A stretch of 51,234 nucleotides of DNA, taken from assembly GCA_021811155.1 (NCBI GenBank), contig JAJZPO010000009.1:1-51234 (forward strand), read 5' to 3'. This document shows, piece after piece, positions 12,266 to 21,237 of this stretch. Made by a program: the position numbers and the translations under genes. The notes under the pieces were generated by a model that saw only the letters and a list, made by a program, of their open reading frames with translations, ran no database searches and had not been told where the DNA came from. Source of the DNA: Bacillota bacterium (GTDB taxonomy: Bacteria > Bacillota > Desulfitobacteriia > Desulfitobacteriales > JAJXUE01). Positions within the stretch are counted from its first letter, which is position 1. Each line of letters begins with the position of its first letter.

Positions 12266-12297
12266 TAGGACAACGGGGACGGTTCCTGACGTCCTAG
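12266..12297. repeat. GGGGACGGTTC hairpin repeat, AGGAC/GTCCT arms
   Basis: AGGAC and GTCCT flank a constant core GGGGACGGTTC. The core recurs at 15 kb, 18 kb, 39.7 kb and 49.8 kb. The degenerate mate GGGACAGGTTTCC follows at about 12316-12328. Confidence 0.8.
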
Positions 12298-12407: not shown

Positions 12408-13652
12408 TCATACTGGGTTTGGGTAGCTGTAGACTTTACCTTCCCAGGTACGCAGCATTATCCGCTTGGACTGGAGCCCAAGCACATATTGGGGCAGGAC
12501 TGGGGTTTTGCCGCCTCCGTCAGGGGTATTGATGATGTAAGTCGGAATAGCCAGACCCGAGGTGTAGCCGCGCAGTTTTTCCATGATTTCCATGCCTTCT
12601 TCCACCGGGCAGATAAAATGCCTGGTCCCGGTGACGTGTTTGGCCTGGAAGATGTAGTAGGGCCGGATGCGCACTTTCAAGAGTTCCTGCATCAATTTTT
12701 TCATGATATGGGGATTATTGTTGATGCCCTTGAGCAGCACGGCCTGATTGCCCAGCACCACGCCCGCCTTGACCAGCCGTTCTGTGGCATCCCAGACTTC
12801 CGGGGTAATTTCCATGGGGTGGTTGAACTGTGTATTCAGGTAGATAGGGGGGTACTTGGCGAGGATTTCACACAGTTCAGGCGTTATGCGCATCGGCAGG
12901 GTAACTGGCACCCGTGTGCCCAAGCGTTTGATTTCCACATGCGGAATGGAACTAAGCTCGCCCAGGAGCCAGTCGAGGAGGCTGTCGGACAAGAGCAGGG
13001 CATCCCCGCCGGTAATCAAAACGTCGCGGATTTCCCGGTTGGCCCTGACGTAGGCGATGGCTGCTTCCAAATCTGCCCGGGTTTTGTGCAGGTCCCGCCC
13101 GCCGATATTCCTGCGCCTTTGGCAGTGGCGGCAGAAGGAGGCACACTGGTTGGTCACGTTTATGATCAGCCGGTCCGGGTAGCGCCTGGTGATGCAGGGG
13201 GCGGGTGAGGTCAGTTCTTCCCCCATTGGGTCGTCTACCCCGCAGCTGTCGTCCAACTCCAGCAGGGAAGGGATGCTCATAAGTCTCACAGGGCAGTTTG
13301 GGTCCTTGGGGTCCATCAGGCTGGCATAATAGGGCGAGATGGCCCAGCGGAAGGTTTTGGCCACTAGCTCTATTTCCGCCTGCTGCTCGCGGTCTAACTC
13401 CAGCAGCTGCGCCAGGGCAGCAACGTCGCTGATGCGGTGTCCCACCTGCCATTTCCAGTTATTCCACTGTTCAGGACCGGCGCCCATGAGCTGCATTATT
13501 CTTTCTTTATTGGCCTGAATTGTTTTTTGCAGGCGGAAGCCTGTGGGTATGTCGGGTTCTTTCTCCAGGTAATCACTGATTCTGTGCTTCAACTGCTTTG
13601 CCCTAAATTCTGCGCGTTTCTGTTTTTGCAAAACGTCTTCACGAAGGGCCAT
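12408..13652 (-). CDS. eam: glutamate 2,3-aminomutase (radical SAM, PLP)
   Basis: A 414-residue radical-SAM aminomutase of the lysine 2,3-aminomutase family. The cluster motif CASFCRHC gives Cys170, Cys174 and Cys177, and the PLP lysine is in PDGGGK (Lys382). Lysine 2,3-aminomutase binds the substrate side-chain amine with two Asp (293 and 330, Clostridium numbering). Here those positions are Lys338 (FQAKHVTG) and Asn375 (YIINTP), the same 37-residue spacing and the same Lys/Asn pair reported for glutamate 2,3-aminomutase. The product would be beta-glutamate, a compatible solute. The ATG at 13652 follows AAGGAG; upstream codons lie in the riboswitch leader. A c-di-AMP riboswitch and terminator precede it, fitting osmotic control. 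Confidence 0.88.
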   Translation of the reverse strand: MALREDVLQKQKRAEFRAKQLKHRISDYLEKEPDIPTGFRLQKTIQANKERIMQLMGAGPEQWNNWKWQVGHRISDVAALAQLLELDREQQAEIELVAKTFRWAISPYYASLMDPKDPNCPVRLMSIPSLLELDDSCGVDDPMGEELTSPAPCITRRYPDRLIINVTNQCASFCRHCQRRRNIGGRDLHKTRADLEAAIAYVRANREIRDVLITGGDALLLSDSLLDWLLGELSSIPHVEIKRLGTRVPVTLPMRITPELCEILAKYPPIYLNTQFNHPMEITPEVWDATERLVKAGVVLGNQAVLLKGINNNPHIMKKLMQELLKVRIRPYYIFQAKHVTGTRHFICPVEEGMEIMEKLRGYTSGLAIPTYIINTPDGGGKTPVLPQYVLGLQSKRIMLRTWEGKVYSYPNPV

Positions 13653-13677
13653 AAAATCACTCCTTTTCTTGCTCCTG

Positions 13678-13711
13678 AAAAAAAGCAGGAACCGGGAGGT
13701 TCCCGGTTCCT
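13678..13711 (-). terminator. riboswitch-controlled leader terminator
   Basis: AGGAACCGGGA (13687-13697) and TCCCGGTTCCT (13701-13711) form a perfect 11-bp stem with a 3-nt loop. On the minus strand GCTTTTTTT follows immediately, only about 20 bases before the ribosome site of eam. Its position makes it the expression platform of the c-di-AMP riboswitch. Confidence 0.9.
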
Positions 13712-13737
13712 GAATATACAAGAAACCAAAGCCAAGC

Positions 13738-13910
13738 TTAAGGTGACTATAAGCAAAGCTTCCCCCCTTCAACGCTTACGAGGTTAGCTGACGGATTCGG
13801 GTCGAAAAAGGTTGACCCTACCTGCGTGTGCAGGATTCACCCCTGAGACAAAAGTGGTTCCCCCGTTCCTGTCCGGCTGGAAACAGCCGGCAAGGATTCA
13901 GCGAGTCTGC
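13738..13910 (-). promoter_or_regulatory. c-di-AMP riboswitch (ydaO/yuaA class)
   Basis: On the minus strand the leader contains the conserved blocks of this class in order: GGGGGAACCAC, GGGGTGAATCCTGC, AGGTAGGGTCAACC, GACCCGAATCCGTCAGCTAA, then CCTCGTAAGCG and GAAGG. These are the near-invariant ydaO/yuaA positions. In known examples ligand binding favours termination, shutting off osmolyte and K+ uptake genes when c-di-AMP is high. Here it precedes a terminator and the eam gene, so beta-glutamate synthesis would be repressed by c-di-AMP. Confidence 0.92.
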
Positions 13911-13926
13911 TTATGCAATTAATTCA

Positions 13927-14218: not shown

Positions 14219-15094
14219 CTAAGTCTCGGACTGGAACCAAACATTAAGGCTGGTGGCATTGCCGGGGTTGGTGGATTTATAAGCAAGTCTGGTCCATTTG
14301 GCCAGATGGGTTGAGGTAATGGCAGAGTTTTCACCTGGATTCACAATTGAAACTGCGCTGTCGTCAAGCCAGGTGGAGCTGGTATTGTCGGGGCTGATCT
14401 GGGCCACAACTGTGACCGGATTGGCCCCTTTGTTCTGGATAAAAAAGGTGTGAAAGAACACCGTAGAAACATCGCGCGGAAATGTATACAGGTAATCGTC
14501 CCCGCTCACCAGGCTCTTTTCCACATCGGCAAAGAAAAAATGCGCGCTCAAAGAGAAACTCTGGGCAGGTTCCTGCAGGTTGACGGTAATGTTGGGACGC
14601 CGGTCCATGCTGGCGCTTTCGCGGCTGTCAAAAGCCAGGAGGCTTGGCTGGGCTTCATCCCGGGCTTTAAGCAGCAAACCGCGGTTTTTGACTTCACCCG
14701 AACACCAGCGCTGGAGAATGTGGGTGATGTCCCAGGCAACGAAAATGCCGTTCTCATTTCTCACTTCGGCGCTGGAGATGATAGCGGCATCATAAGCCGG
14801 CTGCTTGCGCCAGGTTATCTCATCTTCCTCGAAGCGTCTGGTAAGACGATGGATGTCAAAGGTCTTGGCAATCTGAGCATAATCGTTGCGTTTGACGAAC
14901 AGGTGCAAGATGGCGGAGGAGATGAGAGAATTCTTGGGGACCTGGTTTACGTCAAATTTCATAAATATGCGAAACACAGCGGTTGAGCCCGTAGTGGAAC
15001 CTACGAACAAGGACTCCGCATCTGCAAAATTCTTTTTAATTAAATGGCTGGCGACAAAGGCGTCTTTGGCTGGGGCGGGGATAAAAACTGACAT
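14219..15094 (-). CDS. DNRLRE-type domain and DUF6385-like surface protein
   Basis: A 291-residue protein. The N-terminal part (about 1-170) resembles DNRLRE/carbohydrate-binding-like beta domains: opening PAKDAFVAS, then VFRIFMKFDVNQVP, AILHLFVKR, TFDIHRLTRRFEEDEITWRKQP, VAWDITHILQRWCSG and GLLLKARDE. The C-terminal 90 residues (YTFPRDVSTVFFHTFFIQNKG to LNVWFQSET) match the end of the repeat protein encoded next door and resemble DUF6385. There is no recognisable signal peptide; similar Firmicute proteins occur on spore or cell surfaces. The ATG at 15094 follows AGGTGA. It lies head-to-tail with the NxT-repeat gene and beside three glycosyltransferases, suggesting a decorated surface structure. 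Function is inferred from context only. Confidence 0.75.
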   Translation of the reverse strand: MSVFIPAPAKDAFVASHLIKKNFADAESLFVGSTTGSTAVFRIFMKFDVNQVPKNSLISSAILHLFVKRNDYAQIAKTFDIHRLTRRFEEDEITWRKQPAYDAAIISSAEVRNENGIFVAWDITHILQRWCSGEVKNRGLLLKARDEAQPSLLAFDSRESASMDRRPNITVNLQEPAQSFSLSAHFFFADVEKSLVSGDDYLYTFPRDVSTVFFHTFFIQNKGANPVTVVAQISPDNTSSTWLDDSAVSIVNPGENSAITSTHLAKWTRLAYKSTNPGNATSLNVWFQSET

Positions 15095-15412: not shown

Positions 15413-16114
15413 CTATACGCGGGACTGGAACCAGATGCTGAGGGAAACAGTGTTGCCTGCGGTAACGGCAGCATAGGAAACACGGGCGTACTTGACAAAC
15501 CGGCCGGGGACAAGGAAGGTCATGGCGTTTTGGGCAATGGTAACGGTTGTTGTACCGGGATCGTCAGCATAGTTGGTGTTATCCGGGCTAAGCGTAATTT
15601 TGACTAAAGCTGAGTTCGCTGCGATTGAGTTGTTAAGTACCGTAAAGGTGCAGTCGGTTAAGGAGAGTATGTTTTGGCTTGTGGCGTTGGCGAAGGTGGT
15701 GACTGAGCTGGTAACACCTTCGCTGGTATCAGTGGTGGTTCTCGCTCCAAGCTGGGTGACGAAACAGGCCGCGGTGGTATTATTTATTGTGGCGAGGAAA
15801 CTGGCCGCGGTGGAGTTGCTCACGGTGGCGAGGAAGCTTGCGGCGGTGGAGTTGCTCACGGTGGCGAGGAAGCTTGCGGCGGTGGAGTTGCTCACGGTGG
15901 CGAGGAAGCTTGCGGCGGTGGAGTTGCTTACGGTGGCGAGGAAGCTTGCGGCGGTGGAGTTGCTTACGGTGGCGAGGAAACTGGCTGCGGTGGAGTTGCT
16001 TACGGTGGCAAGCAAGCTTGCGGCGGTCGAGTTGCTTACTGTGGCCAGAAGGCAGGCCGCAGTAGCGTTGTTGATATTTAGCCCCAGGTCGCTAAAAACT
16101 TTGATGGCTGGCAC
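15413..16114 (-). CDS. NxT 12-residue-repeat protein with DUF6385-like C-terminus
   Basis: A 233-residue protein. After a short head (PAIKVFSDLGLNIN), about residues 16-123 are nine tandem 12-residue units of consensus [12 protein letters not shown]; seven carry NST, the first NAT and the last NTT. The first and last units have Cys where internal units have Ser (TAAC versus TAAS). The C-terminal ~90 residues match the DUF6385-like end of the neighbouring protein, ending SIWFQSRV. There is no signal peptide. GTG at 16114 is used, 10 bases after AAGGAG. It is divergent from three GT2-TPR glycosyltransferases. Dense NxT and S/T make it a plausible glycosylation target on the spore or cell surface; this is inference. 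A plus-strand antisense frame through the repeat is an artefact. Confidence 0.75.
   Translation of the reverse strand: MPAIKVFSDLGLNINNATAACLLATVSNSTAASLLATVSNSTAASFLATVSNSTAASFLATVSNSTAASFLATVSNSTAASFLATVSNSTAASFLATVSNSTAASFLATINNTTAACFVTQLGARTTTDTSEGVTSSVTTFANATSQNILSLTDCTFTVLNNSIAANSALVKITLSPDNTNYADDPGTTTVTIAQNAMTFLVPGRFVKYARVSYAAVTAGNTVSLSIWFQSRV
15768..16076. repeat. 36-bp coding tandem repeat
   Basis: Nine in-frame 36-bp units encode the 12-residue repeat. The internal copies are nearly identical at DNA level, differing mainly at a few synonymous positions (CTCACG versus CTTACG) plus AGCTTG versus AACTGG. Such homogeneity points to recent expansion by slippage or unequal exchange, so copy number may vary among strains. 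Confidence 0.95.
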
Positions 16115-16310
16115 TGCGCATCAACTCCTTCAAGTCATAGCAAAGTTCTTATTTAGTTTATGGAAAGCGGGGTTGACCGGTGCCTGCCAAGGATAATTAC
16201 GGGACTTTTTTTGCATCCAACAGGATGCCTTCGGGGATGCACCGGCATATATTTTTACCAGGCCGGCAGTGTGCCTGTGTAATAAATAATTTCTCTGGGG
16301 GTTCTCTGGT

Positions 16311-17894
16311 GTGAAGAAAGCTAAGCCGCGCCTAAGTCTGTGCATGCTGGTGCGGGATGAGGAGGGCGACCTCCCCAGGGCGCTTGGCAGCGTGCAGGGA
16401 CTTGTGGATGAAATCATAGTCGTGGATACAGGGTCCGTGGACCACAGCAGGCAGATAGCCCGCTCCTTCGGCGCCAAAGTCTATAACCACGCCTGGCAGG
16501 ATGATTTCTCAGCGCCCAAGAACCTGGCTCTCCAGAAGGCCAGGGGGAAATGGGTATTGATTCTGGACGCCGATGAGGAGTTAATGCCGGAAGACAGGGA
16601 AAAAATCCGCCAGGCGGTTGAGTCTCCCGGCAAGGCCGAAGGGTTTCTCCTTGGAGTCGTCAATTACACCGGGGAGGCTCCCGGCGTCCAGTACGAACTG
16701 ACACTGAACCTGCGTCTGTTCAGAAACAGGCCGGGCTGCCGCTTTACCCGTCCGGTGCATGAGCAACTTAGCGGCCTCGGCCCGGGCGCCGAATTGGCAA
16801 GCCGTCCGGACATCCGCATTTTGCACTACGGCTACCTGGAACCTTATCTTGTCCGCAAGCGGAAGCGGGAGCGCAATTTCCTGCTCCTGCAGCGGCGGCT
16901 GGAGCAGGGACAGGCCGATGCCTTCGACTACTTCAACCTTGGGGTGGAATACAACCGGCAAAATCTTTGGCAGGAAGCGCTGAGAGCCCTGGAGCTGGCC
17001 CGAAAACTGGAGCCGGGTGAACCTATGTGGCTGAGCGCTTGCCGCAGGCTGCAAATCCAGTGCTTGCTCCAGCTGCAGGCCTGGGACGAAGCTCTGCAGG
17101 CGGCGGAGGAGAGCCTGGAGGTTTACCCCGATTACGCCGACATGGTGTACCTGCGGGGAATAGCCCTGACCGGCAAGGGCCGGTACACCCAGGCGCTTGG
17201 CGCTTTTTACCAGGCTGCGGCCATGAACGGCCTGGTGCCGCCCGGTTACGCCCATGACCCCGGTCTCACCGGCTTTAAGGCTTATTACTCTATAGGCCAG
17301 GCCCAGCTTCAGCTGGGGAAGCTTGATGAGGCGGTTTCAGCCCTGCGCAAGGCTCTGCAGCTTGAGCCGGGATACCGCCCCGCCCTGCTTGCTTTGGCCC
17401 GCTGCCTGGCAGGTGATGGGGAGGCAGAAACCGGTGAGCTGGAATCCCTGGTGGAGGACGGAACGGCAGAGCGCTGCCTGACTTTGGCGGAGATTTGCCA
17501 CGAGGCCGGTCTGTTTAAGCTCGCCCAGGGGTTTTTGAACAGGCACCCCGCTCAACTGCCCCCAGACTACATTTTTCTGCAGGGGGTACTGCACTGGAAA
17601 CTGGGAGAGTACCGTGAGGCGGTAAAAGTCCTGGGGCAGTTCTCCGGAGAACAGGCCGCGGAAGCCCGGCTCATCAGCTGGGGCTGCCGCTGGCTGCTCG
17701 GAGAAGCTCCGGAGGCGGAGCTGCAGGAATTATGCCGTTCCCAGGCAGATTATGATTTCCTGGTCCAGTTCTGCCTGGATGAGGCTGAGCGGGCGCTGCA
17801 GCGGACTGAAAAAGCTTTTCCCGCCCTCCCTATCCTGGCCGACTACCGGGCCAGGCTGGACCGCTGCCGCCGGCTGGCACTCCGTCCCGGTTAG
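16311..17894 (+). CDS. GT2 glycosyltransferase with TPR repeats (A)
   Basis: A 527-residue protein. The N-terminal GT2 domain (about 1-225) opens RLSLCMLVRDEEGDLPRALGSV, has IIVVDTGSVD and the nucleotide-sugar/metal motif LDADEE, and ends around RPVHEQLSG and ILHYGYLE. The rest (about 215-525) is a TPR array (YFNLGVEYNRQNLWQEALRALELARKLEP and later units). GT2-TPR proteins of this SunS-like class glycosylate proteins or peptides in several Firmicutes, the TPR part probably holding the acceptor. The GTG at 16311 follows a G-rich site. There is no membrane segment, so the enzyme is cytoplasmic. It is the first of three related genes and divergent from the NxT-repeat protein, its best candidate acceptor. 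Confidence 0.88.
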   Translation: MKKAKPRLSLCMLVRDEEGDLPRALGSVQGLVDEIIVVDTGSVDHSRQIARSFGAKVYNHAWQDDFSAPKNLALQKARGKWVLILDADEELMPEDREKIRQAVESPGKAEGFLLGVVNYTGEAPGVQYELTLNLRLFRNRPGCRFTRPVHEQLSGLGPGAELASRPDIRILHYGYLEPYLVRKRKRERNFLLLQRRLEQGQADAFDYFNLGVEYNRQNLWQEALRALELARKLEPGEPMWLSACRRLQIQCLLQLQAWDEALQAAEESLEVYPDYADMVYLRGIALTGKGRYTQALGAFYQAAAMNGLVPPGYAHDPGLTGFKAYYSIGQAQLQLGKLDEAVSALRKALQLEPGYRPALLALARCLAGDGEAETGELESLVEDGTAERCLTLAEICHEAGLFKLAQGFLNRHPAQLPPDYIFLQGVLHWKLGEYREAVKVLGQFSGEQAAEARLISWGCRWLLGEAPEAELQELCRSQADYDFLVQFCLDEAERALQRTEKAFPALPILADYRARLDRCRRLALRPG

Positions 17895-17930
17895 GCTCGC
17901 TTAGGGGCAACATCACGAAGGGTGTCAAGG

Positions 17931-18088
17931 GGACGGTTCTTTTGACACCAACTTACTCGCGCGGAGAGAGGACTTGTGGCAATAGGACGTCGGGGACGGT
18001 TCCGGTTGTCCTAGCTAAAATAGTAGAATTGGGCATGGCCATTGCTAGGACGTTGCTAGGACGTTGAGAACCGTCCCCGTTATCCTAG
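17931..18088. repeat. cluster of three GGGGACGGTTC hairpin repeats
   Basis: Unit 1 has GGTGTCAA/TTGACACC arms (17931-17949), unit 2 AGGAC/GTCCT (17983-18012), and unit 3 is an inverted core with AGGAC/TCCT arms (18058-18086). The cluster fills the gap between glycosyltransferases A and B. Confidence 0.85.
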
Positions 18089-18104
18089 TTGAGGTGGGAT
18101 TGAG

Positions 18105-19238
18105 ATGGGTGAGAACAAGGCGCAGGTCAGCCTGTGCATGATTGTCAAGGATGAGGCGGAAAACCTGGCCCGCTGCCTGAAGAGCGTTGACGGCCTGGCG
18201 GACGAAATCGTGATCGTCGATACCGGTTCCACGGATGCTACCAGAGCGCTGGCGGAGGGCTTCGGCGCCAGGGTATTTTCCTTTGCCTGGGCGGATGATT
18301 TCAGCTCCGCGCGCAACCACTCCCTCGAGCAGGCCAGCGGGGAGTGGATTCTGGTCATGGATGCCGATGAGGAATTAGCGCCAGGGTCTGCCGCCGTGCT
18401 TAAGCCTTTTCTGCAGCGGCGGGACTTGGAGGGGCTGTTTATTACCATGCTTAATTTTCAGGGGGAGAGACCAGGGGAGGACCTGGAGACCTACCTGTAT
18501 CTGAAGCTTTTTCGCAACAGGGCCTGCTACCGTTATACCCGTCCCCTGCATGAGCAGCTCTTGGGAGTTCCGGCCGATCTGAAGGGGTTTGCGGCTGTGC
18601 CGGAGGCAAGGTGCCTGCATTATGGCTACTTAAGTGCACAGGAAAGCGGGAAGGACAAATCCAGCCGCAACTTCAAGATCATCCGGGCGGAGATTGCACG
18701 CAACCCGGATGCCTTCAACTATCTCAGCCTGGCCCAGGAATATTTCCGGGCAGGCAGGCTGGAGGAGGCAGCAGGCGCTGCGCTTGAGTCCCGCCGGCTT
18801 TTGGACAAAAAAGCCTATTACGGGGCCAAGCTGTATAAGCTCCTTGGCACGGCATACTGCCGGCTGGAGCGTCACCGGGAAGCCATTGAGGTTTGCCGGG
18901 AAGGAGTCAGCTTTTATCCGGACTACCCCGATATAGTGTATCTCCTGGGTGCGGCTTGTCTGGGGTTGGAGCTTTACGCCCAGGCTGTGGGGCATTTCCG
19001 CCAGTGTCTGGCCATGGGCAGTCTCGCATCCCCGCTCTTAATGCGGGACCAGGCCTACACAGGGTACCGGGCCTATCTGGCCCTTGCCCGGGCCTACACT
19101 GGCCTGGGCAAGGCGGAAGATGCCCTGGAGTGTTACGGCCGCGCCCTTGCGCTCAATCCTGAAGCTGCAGCGGCAGGCGCGGCTGAACTGCTGCGCGGGC
19201 CAAACGTAAGCGGAAGCGGGGGTAAAAAGAATGGCTGA
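18105..19238 (+). CDS. GT2 glycosyltransferase with TPR repeats (B)
   Basis: A 377-residue paralogue of the upstream enzyme. The GT2 domain has VSLCMIVKDEAENLARCLKSVDGLADEIVIVDTGSTD, the catalytic metal motif MDADEE, and RPLHEQL followed by CLHYGYLS. A shorter TPR region (about 205-365) follows, with units around FNYLSLAQEYFRAGRLEEA and AEDALECYGRALALNPEA. The ATG at 18105 is preceded by GAGGTGGGATTGAG, a good ribosome site. Its 3' end overlaps the start of the next glycosyltransferase by 8 bases, so B and C are probably translated together. The similarity of A, B and C suggests local duplication with divergence of acceptor-binding repeats. Confidence 0.9.
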   Translation: MGENKAQVSLCMIVKDEAENLARCLKSVDGLADEIVIVDTGSTDATRALAEGFGARVFSFAWADDFSSARNHSLEQASGEWILVMDADEELAPGSAAVLKPFLQRRDLEGLFITMLNFQGERPGEDLETYLYLKLFRNRACYRYTRPLHEQLLGVPADLKGFAAVPEARCLHYGYLSAQESGKDKSSRNFKIIRAEIARNPDAFNYLSLAQEYFRAGRLEEAAGAALESRRLLDKKAYYGAKLYKLLGTAYCRLERHREAIEVCREGVSFYPDYPDIVYLLGAACLGLELYAQAVGHFRQCLAMGSLASPLLMRDQAYTGYRAYLALARAYTGLGKAEDALECYGRALALNPEAAAAGAAELLRGPNVSGSGGKKNG

Positions 19239-21237
19239 ACCAAAGCTTTCCCTGTGCATCATAGCCAAAGACGAGGAAAAAAACATCGCCCGCTGCATTG
19301 CGAGCGTGGACGGGTTGGCTGATGAAATCATTGTGGTGGACACCGGCTCCCGGGACCGTACAGCGGAAGTTGCGAGAGAACTGGGAGCCCAGGTGTTTTT
19401 CTGCCCCTGGGAGGAGGACTTCAGCGGCCCCAAAAACTTCGCACTGGACCGGGCCAGGGGAGAGTGGGCGCTCTTAATGGACGCCGACGATGTGTTGAGC
19501 AGGGAGGCGCATGCGGAGATTCTTAACCTTACCCTGGAGACTGATGTGGATGGGTTCTTGCTGCAAACCGTGAGCTTTCTGGGCAGAAGTCCGGGCTTGA
19601 GCCGGGTTACCAACCTGCAGGTCAGGCTGGTAAGAAACCGCCCCCAATACCGCTATCGGGGGAGGATACATGAGCGCATTCTGTCTGAACCGGGGTCCAG
19701 GGTAAGGGCAGTCCCCTTGAAGGTTTATCACTATGGTTATCTTGACAGTGAACTCTCAGGCAAGGGCAAGCTTAAACGCAACCTGAGAATCCTGCGGGAG
19801 GCAGTACGCCAGGAGCCAAGCGATTTCAACCGCTTCAACCTTGGCATGGAATATTTGCGGACAGGGCGCCTGGGCCAGGCAAAAGCGCAGTTGGAGCAGG
19901 TGTGGCGGCACGCTGCGCCCGAGGCGGGGTATTTTCCTGATCTGGTAATTAAACTGGCCTCAACTTACCTGGAACTGGCAGAATATGAAGCCGGCCTGTC
20001 TGTCCTGACAAAAGGTATTGAGCAGCATCCGAAGTTTACCGATCTCTTTCTGATTCAGGGACGGGTTTACCAAGCTATGGGCGAATATGCTCTTGCTGCC
20101 AGGGCTTTCGAAACCTGTCTCAGCAAAGGGGAGGCGCCCTTTATTTATGCCTCGGAACTGGGGTGCGGCTCTTACCTGGCCTGGAACGCTCTGGGGGATC
20201 TGGCCAGTGACCTGTATGACTACAAGCGGGCAGCGGGCTGTTACCTCGAGTCCCTGACCCATGCTCCGCAGCAAGCAGAAACTCTGGCAGCATTGCTCAA
20301 GGCGCTGGGGAAATTCATGGGACTGCCGGAGCTGCGAAAGTTTCTGCGGGACAACTTCAACCTGGATGATGCGTCAGGGAGCGCCAGGCTCGTATCAGCT
20401 CTCTTGGCGGCGGACCAGCCGGAATTGGCCCGGGAGATTCTCTCCCGCATTGATGCCGCCGCGTCGGATGAACAAATATTGAGCTATCTGCGCGGACAGT
20501 ATCTGCTCATGTCCGGCTGCTTTGAGCAGGCTCACCGGCATCTGGGGGGGATAGCCGGGGAATCCGCTTTTTATACGGAAGCCATCACCTCTTTGTGCGT
20601 AATCCATTGGGTTCTGCACGCCTGGCCACGGGCGGAACAGGATCTGCGCTGCCTGCAGAGCGCCCCGGGCGGAGCGCTAAGGGGCAGACTCTTCAGACTG
20701 GTTCACGTCTGTTTCCGTTGGGGCAAAGTTGGGCGTCTTAAACTTAACCGGCAGGAATCTGCCCCTGCTTTGAGTGAGATACTGGCGCTGCTGCGTTTAT
20801 CCCTGCAGCTGAAGCAAGAGAATTTGCTCCAGGCAGTTTGCAGGGTGGTTGAGAGCGTCCCTGGCTGGGGACAAGGGCTCATCCAGGCGGCTCAGATCTG
20901 TATGGAGTATGGAGCCTTGGACTCAGCGCTGCCCCTCTTGGCAAGAGCGTCTCAAAAGCCGGAGTCAGGCTCAACCGGTGAAAGGGACAAAAAAAAGGCA
21001 GAAGTCAGGAAACTGACTACCCTGCTTAGGGCTCAGCGCTTCGCTGCTGCAGGTCAATGGTCTTTGGCCTGGTCAGCTTTTCAGCTGGGTAATGCTGATT
21101 TGACCCGGGACTTGGGCATGATTCACGCTCTGGCCGGTATGGCCGGGAGCGTGCTCCGCAACTCACCGGAGCCGAGGCCCGCCCTGGCCCAGGGGCTGAG
21201 TGAACTGCTTGAACTCTTTCCAGTTAAGAAAGCTTAG
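19231..21237 (+). CDS. GT2 glycosyltransferase with long TPR-like C-terminus (C)
   Basis: A 668-residue protein. The GT2 domain (about 1-220) has LSLCIIAKDEEKNIARCIASVDGLADEIIVVDTGSRD. Its metal motif MDADD replaces the DADEE of A and B, and RIHERIL replaces their HEQL. About 430 residues of helical TPR-like repeats follow, with clear units near FNLGMEYLRTGRLGQA and YQAMGEYALAARAFETCLSKGE and less regular ones toward the end. This is roughly twice the repeat length of the upstream paralogues. The ATG at 19231 lies inside the end of gene B. The role is presumably sugar transfer to protein or to a glycan begun by A or B; acceptor and sugar are unknown. The different active-site neighbourhood suggests it is not redundant. 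Confidence 0.87.
   Translation: MAEPKLSLCIIAKDEEKNIARCIASVDGLADEIIVVDTGSRDRTAEVARELGAQVFFCPWEEDFSGPKNFALDRARGEWALLMDADDVLSREAHAEILNLTLETDVDGFLLQTVSFLGRSPGLSRVTNLQVRLVRNRPQYRYRGRIHERILSEPGSRVRAVPLKVYHYGYLDSELSGKGKLKRNLRILREAVRQEPSDFNRFNLGMEYLRTGRLGQAKAQLEQVWRHAAPEAGYFPDLVIKLASTYLELAEYEAGLSVLTKGIEQHPKFTDLFLIQGRVYQAMGEYALAARAFETCLSKGEAPFIYASELGCGSYLAWNALGDLASDLYDYKRAAGCYLESLTHAPQQAETLAALLKALGKFMGLPELRKFLRDNFNLDDASGSARLVSALLAADQPELAREILSRIDAAASDEQILSYLRGQYLLMSGCFEQAHRHLGGIAGESAFYTEAITSLCVIHWVLHAWPRAEQDLRCLQSAPGGALRGRLFRLVHVCFRWGKVGRLKLNRQESAPALSEILALLRLSLQLKQENLLQAVCRVVESVPGWGQGLIQAAQICMEYGALDSALPLLARASQKPESGSTGERDKKKAEVRKLTTLLRAQRFAAAGQWSLAWSAFQLGNADLTRDLGMIHALAGMAGSVLRNSPEPRPALAQGLSELLELFPVKKA

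Follow-up and report, generated by a model that had tools for sequence, protein, structure and literature searches.

A 51,234-nucleotide stretch of DNA from a member of the Bacillota (contig JAJZPO010000009.1 of assembly GCA_021811155.1, henceforth the window) carries a gene for a Thr-rich repeat protein ending in a DUF6385 domain, divergently oriented from three genes encoding family 2 glycosyltransferases (GT2) with tetratricopeptide repeats (TPRs). We consider it likely, though by no means assured, that this locus encodes a spore-surface glycoprotein system in which the GT2-TPR enzymes glycosylate the repeat protein, a DUF6385-based counterpart of the SgtA/BclA3 system of Clostridioides difficile. 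This proposal is built on the genes present and their conserved proximity, on catalytic motifs that are intact, on the Thr-rich character of the repeats and on a promoter motif. The genes and domains at its centre are:

15413..16114, minus strand: repeat-DUF6385 protein, the proposed glycosylation acceptor, 233 aa, GTG start (open reading frame (ORF), DUF6385 match of 1.1e-20, conserved gene pair)
15752..16075, minus strand: nine 12-residue Thr/Ser-rich repeats of this protein, residues 14-121, consensus VSNSTAASFLAT
15419..15670, minus strand: DUF6385 domain of the repeat protein, a jelly-roll head in the model (Pfam and predicted structure)
16311..17894, plus strand: GT2-TPR glycosyltransferase 1, 527 aa, divergent to the repeat gene
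18105..19238, plus strand: GT2-TPR glycosyltransferase 2, 377 aa, closest solved relative GmaR (3.1e-34)
19231..21237, plus strand: GT2-TPR glycosyltransferase 3, 668 aa, with an 8-base overlap with the end of glycosyltransferase 2

The arrangement given in a preliminary description of the window, a 233-residue protein with nine N-[S/A/T]-T repeats facing three GT2-TPR genes, was recovered in every part. Each repeat holds one N-[A/S/T]-T triplet (NAT once, NST seven times, NTT once). The underlying DNA array (15789-16045) scores 416 in Tandem Repeats Finder (36 bp x 7.1, 93% match), and many of the substitutions that distinguish the copies are synonymous, in keeping with a coding repeat. DUF6385 (PF19912) is matched in two minus-strand proteins, the repeat protein and a neighbouring companion; both matches exceed the Pfam cut-off of 26.8 bits, the higher score being 82.4 and the lower 73.8. 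No signal peptide is apparent by eye in either of them, and a Pfam scan of the window proteins found neither collagen GXY repeats nor the BclA C-terminal domain. Pfam matches of MgtE_N to the repeats and of TGFb_propeptide to the DNRLRE domain of the companion look spurious.

The gene pair is conserved. Of 61 related genomes, 24 carry DUF6385, counting that of the window, and the domain scores over the cut-off in 53 of the 399 genomes of an even draw from the phylum. Tandem-repeat DUF6385 proteins of this phylum sample were scored for a GT2-TPR gene within 600 bp, and 31 of 33 have one: 29 by ORF calling, and those of G270 and G349 by profile search, the GT2-TPR gene lying about 166 and 114 bp away, respectively, and running off the contig end. 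Of the remaining two proteins, that of G092 has its GT2-TPR gene 1,077 bp off and that of G291 is cut by the contig start. At the genome level, with a threshold of E<=1e-40, GT2-TPR genes occur in 43 of the 53 DUF6385 genomes versus 109 of the 346 others (P = 8e-12). Because cluster enzymes had gone into the profile, the test was rerun minus the genomes behind it, giving 29/39 versus 109/346 (P = 3e-7); both P values overstate independence, since the genomes are related to one another. The co-occurrence that the preliminary description had named as the check to make is strong, and it supports the view that repeat-DUF6385 and GT2-TPR genes form a pair conserved in many spore-former families.

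In 20-kb stretches around DUF6385 matches, the same layout was seen in some ten genomes from the order of the window. A gene for a Thr-rich repeat-DUF6385 protein lies divergent to three consecutive GT2-TPR genes, one or two more DUF6385 proteins are encoded at the far end, and a two-domain GT2 protein often follows the GT2-TPR genes. Among named-collection loci recovered with a repeat-DUF6385 profile, 48 of 57 carry GT2-TPR genes; the genera include Desulfosporosinus, Desulforamulus, Desulfofundulus, Desulfotomaculum, Pelotomaculum, Carboxydocella, Acididesulfobacillus, Lucifera and Sporomusa. No relatives of the repeat protein were found among viral contigs. The two-domain protein, a fourth gene in many relatives' clusters (e.g. 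L032:9286-10854, minus strand), combines an N-terminal region with weak similarity to Anp1 and a GT2 domain, divergent in sequence, at its C-terminus; the window locus lacks it.

All three plus-strand genes give Pfam matches to PF00535 (GT2; 2e-17 to 5e-21) and to TPRs, and their products have the N-terminal GT2 catalytic domain with a DxD motif, followed by TPRs, that marks the SgtA/GmaR type. D39/G41/S42/D44, the DxD residues D86 and D88, H172 and R188-N189 are invariant in 17 family members, these three included. Their catalytic domains share 43-47% pairwise identity; since they form no common group in a tree of 79 such domains, the enzymes look, from their sequences, like old paralogues and not like a recent triplication. 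The preliminary description had cited SunS-like enzymes as precedent, but SunS is not supported as the closest model. GmaR is far nearer as a solved relative (3.1e-34 versus 1.2e-11 for SunS, PDB 7msp), and SgtA/BclA3 fits the genomic logic better. The window genome (3.2 Mb) holds five GT2-TPR profile matches, three of them at this locus and the fifth marginal (4.6e-11). A fourth GT2-TPR gene of this genome (768 aa; L217:7939-10245, G000 contig 15) adjoins, as judged by eye, aminotransferase, epimerase and acetyltransferase genes, and neither flagellin nor DUF6385 stands beside it among these sugar-nucleotide and acetyltransferase neighbours.

The second DUF6385 gene of the locus lies beyond the repeat gene:

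14219..15094, minus strand: CBM96/DNRLRE-DUF6385 companion, 291 aa (DUF6385 2.5e-23, CBM96 2.7e-24, DNRLRE 4.5e-33)

The CBM96/DNRLRE domain forms its N-terminal half, and the DUF6385 domain is common to the companion and the repeat protein, so that the shared C-terminal domain described at the outset is borne out by the Pfam match. The companion had been put forward as perhaps a further acceptor; its CBM96/DNRLRE domain could equally bind sugar. Such companions recur in other clusters: of 10 tested, 7 have a CBM96 match at E<0.001, which in one case stays under the cut-off set by Pfam. Other small DUF6385 proteins, which lack long repeats, are encoded by adjacent gene pairs beside the main cluster at L035:4029-5099 and L043:8841-10011.

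The pairing could also arise if the enzymes modified another target, such as flagellin in the manner of GmaR, or built a spore polysaccharide, with the repeat protein as a co-regulated structural protein encoded nearby. We regard this as unlikely. It is true that the substrate of GmaR is flagellin (PMC9638930), that GT1-type, CgeB-like and two-domain GT2 sugar enzymes adjoin many clusters, and that the CBM96 companions could bind polysaccharide. However, it is specifically the Thr-rich repeat gene that the GT2-TPR genes adjoin, across unrelated repeat sequences, whereas DUF6385 genes without repeats are more often found with no GT gene nearby (none in the locus for 34 of 87), and TPR tails suit a protein substrate.

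The repeats bear on the question of which residue would carry the sugar. The repeat unit differs wholly between lineages while the enzymes are kept: it is SNSTAASFLATV in the window, PICTTSVLPICTTAITPVSAS in Sporomusa, TNPVTIANASLTVAGTVTVSEV in G010 and NGTITSVLGATITAG in G388, and AITPPTGGL, AITSTGL or TVTAPA in Desulfosporosinus and relatives. Thr is abundant in all repeat types, mostly making up 11-27% of the region. N-x-S/T is common in a few relatives and rare or absent in most (0-3 sites per 150-250 residues), with none in the Sporomusa repeats, which contain PICTT. Given this patchiness and the uniformly high Thr content, the sequon is the local feature and threonine the shared one. Sequon-directed cytoplasmic N-glycosylation on the Asn of N-[S/A/T]-T, a function like that of NGT/HMW1C exerted here by a GT2 enzyme, is consistent with the triplet in all nine window repeats and with frequent N-x-S/T in G010, G081, G388 and G427. 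It is nevertheless improbable, as the Thr-rich repeats of most relatives with the same enzymes are without N-x-T, which argues against the triplet as acceptor signal and for O-glycosylation of Thr/Ser; the N-A-S/T of the window could be a mere by-product of Thr-rich repeats. Moreover, close GT2-TPR relatives act on Thr/Ser. GmaR is a flagellin O-N-acetylglucosamine (O-GlcNAc) transferase (PMC9638930), and C. difficile SgtA, a 358-aa protein in which a GT2 domain is combined with four TPRs, modifies Thr residues in the repeats of BclA3, the product of the adjacent gene, with beta-O-GlcNAc (PMC7157674). From the Thr shared across repeats and these two O-GlcNAc enzymes, we infer that Thr/Ser O-glycosylation is the best-supported chemistry.

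Promoter motifs and gene context point to the spore surface as the location of the repeat protein. The sigma-K consensus in Bacillus subtilis is mACm-N16-CATAnnnTA, and an exact match lies upstream of the repeat gene:

16154..16182, minus strand: sigma-K-type promoter CACC-N16-CATAAACTA

It ends 39 bases ahead of the gene start. The window holds three such sites versus 0.13 expected, the other two lying elsewhere. With spacers of 15-17 bases, the motif is found upstream of 21 of 135 DUF6385 genes versus 16 of 793 other same-locus ORFs (P = 1e-9). When upstream regions were restricted to intergenic sequence, it is found at 14 of 105 DUF6385 genes, versus 0.27 expected from shuffles and versus 14 of 564 other genes (P = 1.4e-5). 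CATAnnnTA elements also precede the first GT gene in many relatives. Both sigK and spoIVA are present in the window genome, and spoIVA is found in 51 of the 53 DUF6385 genomes versus 285 of 346 others (P = 0.004); the two genomes that lack it are 75-80% complete.

BclA-like genes occur beside the cluster in two relatives. In G411 (L124:15268-18786), two collagen-repeat (GPTGPT) proteins flank a 362-aa GT2-TPR enzyme directly after a repeat-DUF6385/GT2-TPR cluster, and the first of them is BclA-like (Collagen 5e-41; BclA_C 1e-5, below the BclA_C cut-off). L200 shows, in a row, a BclA-like collagen gene, genes for 357-aa and 642-aa GT2-TPR enzymes, and a repeat-DUF6385 gene. We take C. difficile CD3350 to be sgtA, in line with the adjacency of sgtA and bclA3 mentioned above. 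Both bclA3 (CD3349) and CD3350, a family-2 glycosyltransferase gene, belong to the sigma-K regulon (PMC3789822). As a separate observation, the DUF6385 cluster of L128 (G440; 15596-17303) adjoins, as judged by eye, an apparent spoIIA/sigF sporulation operon.

On account of the promoters and their enrichment, the presence of spoIVA and sigK, the BclA-like neighbours and the C. difficile sigma-K parallel, the repeat-DUF6385 protein probably resides at the spore surface. The preliminary description had allowed for a spore or a cell surface layer; the spore is favoured by these data, the vegetative wall is not. DNRLRE/CBM96 domains do occur in cell-surface proteins, which would suit a vegetative cell-surface or S-layer-like glycoprotein. 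The lack of an apparent signal peptide, together with the sigma-K-type promoters, the distribution of spoIVA and the BclA-like neighbours, makes this very improbable. SunS-like S-glycosylation on Cys has a negligible chance of being correct: although the catalytic domains do match the profile of SunS (best value 4.9e-18) and Cys occurs in the Sporomusa repeats and in the first and last window repeats, the scores of 45.6, 51.2 and 65.2 bits stay far from the cut-off of 350 bits for the SunS equivalog TIGR04195, and Cys is lacking in 7 of the 9 window repeats and in nearly all relatives' repeats.

The glycoprotein system that we favour would operate as follows. Late in sporulation, the repeat-DUF6385 protein and its CBM96-DUF6385 companion would be made in the cytoplasm of the mother cell. 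There, the GT2-TPR enzymes would add sugars, most likely O-linked and of the GlcNAc type, to the Thr/Ser residues of the repeats, the long repetitive substrate being held by the TPR tails. The modified protein would then assemble on the spore surface via its DUF6385 head. The three or four enzymes per cluster might each serve their own sites or repeat contexts, or might add one sugar after another. Sugar type, linkage, transfer order and location are in each case inferred. Several results weigh against such a system: a clear sporulation promoter was sought for the window GT genes and not found, no strong GT2-TPR match is present in 10 of the 53 genomes with DUF6385, and the locus was not found in a same-genus genome (83% complete) or in a same-family genome.

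The structure predicted for the repeat protein offers a lead on the form of such a surface layer. In an AlphaFold2 model, the DUF6385 head has a predicted local distance difference test score (pLDDT) of about 90 and the all-beta repeats one of about 70. Among the top PDB matches are the endospore appendage (Ena) subunits Ena3A, Ena1B, Ena2A and Ena1C, along with PirA, TNF-like lectins and trimeric phage tailspikes, and Ena3A ranks first for a second model, that of a Desulfosporosinus protein. In Foldseek searches with the two models, Ena is among the top matches at TMt 0.49-0.67, and other jelly rolls score similarly. The Desulfosporosinus repeats are modelled as extended without DSSP strands, which would be compatible with a trimeric fibre; this is beyond what the model of a monomer can show, and the point is given no weight. 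A Pfam scan of 26 DUF6385 heads yielded no match to Ena (PF13157) or to any other consistent family. Profile alignment with hhalign gave a non-significant probability of 2.5% for Ena, with a template of two sequences only, and of 0.2%, i.e. no homology, for the F-ENA domain DUF4183 (PF13799). A profile search of the heads against PDB sequences returned nothing meaningful, and neither Ena nor F-ENA (DUF4183) was found in the window genome. Because the jelly roll is a widespread fold, and the sequence comparisons gave no convincing link to Ena or F-ENA, the Ena-like fold is treated as a lead only.

Judged from these models, the resemblance of the DUF6385 head to Ena subunits makes a glycosylated fibre possible. 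In F-ENA subunits, a hook of the form M-P-hydrophobic-hydrophobic-K/Q is followed by a beta neck, which varies in length, and by a head; putative O-glycans on Ser/Thr are described for one F-ENA from a clostridial species (PMC11952670). The repeat-DUF6385 proteins start with MPNFKIF or MPAIKVF, continue with a repeat region of variable length and have the head at the end. A tentative extension, which we hold to be doubtful, is that they build a spore filament or nap that is O-glycosylated and so far undescribed, each subunit having an N-terminal MPxxKxF hook, a Thr-repeat shaft whose length would be set by the number of repeats, a jelly-roll head, and the CBM96/DNRLRE-DUF6385 companion serving as anchor or tip. 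Such a filament, if real, would be widespread in anaerobic spore-formers without Ena or F-ENA, the host of the window included.

Other elements were seen in the window. A cyclic di-AMP riboswitch (RF00379, 98.2 bits; 13758-13913, minus strand) lies upstream of ORF 12408-13772, which by eye looks like lysine 2,3-aminomutase. Short scattered elements with the core GGGGACGGTTC / GAACCGTCCCC, often beside GTCCTAGC, occur at 12276, 15197, 15300, 17930, 17993, 18071, 39737, 39909 and 49828; several sit between genes of the glycosyltransferase locus, and they are possibly a repetitive extragenic palindromic (REP)-like element.

Spore-surface protein glycosylation is understood in detail mainly for BclA, in a small number of Bacillus and Clostridioides species. 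The literature searched contained no paper on DUF6385 and none on spore-coat glycosyltransferases of Desulfotomaculum, and it linked DNRLRE to spores nowhere, save in an unrelated phage paper. The locus would add a separate, uncharacterised acceptor family, with several enzymes per locus, in dozens of families of mostly anaerobic spore-formers. DUF6385 thereby gains a testable function, and its repeats form a natural series for learning how GT2-TPR enzymes choose their sites. Cultured carriers of the pair are available in Desulfosporosinus, Desulforamulus, Desulfofundulus, Pelotomaculum, Carboxydocella and Sporomusa.

Of the known systems, SunS shares a homologous GT2 catalytic domain with the window enzymes; it is much more distant than GmaR, and its acceptor is a bacteriocin peptide rather than a large repeat protein. 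Listeria GmaR (PMC9638930; PDB 22ao) is the nearest solved sequence and likewise has a GT2 domain followed by TPRs. Unlike the window enzymes, it has an antirepressor domain and acts on flagellin, whereas no flagellin gene is adjacent at the window locus and the partner there is DUF6385. For Ena and F-ENA (PF13157, PF13799; PMC11952670), the predicted head of the window family may resemble the Ena jelly roll, and the hook-like MPxxK N-terminus followed by a variable middle and a head recalls F-ENA. The window family differs in lacking significant sequence homology to them and in having Thr-rich repeats and GT2-TPR partners, and any fibre formed by it would be hypothetical. The closest parallel in genomic logic is SgtA-BclA3 of C. 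difficile (PMC7157674, PMC3789822). In both systems, a GT2-TPR enzyme is encoded beside a protein with Thr-rich repeats in which no secretion signal is apparent, and both point to sigma-K timing and the spore surface, here by promoter motif and gene context; in two relatives, a BclA-like gene and a GT2-TPR gene of SgtA size even lie beside the DUF6385 cluster. The window acceptor differs in having a DUF6385 head and lineage-specific repeats in place of collagen and BclA_C, and DUF6385 clusters hold three or four enzymes versus one, the likeness to SgtA being drawn from its published description.

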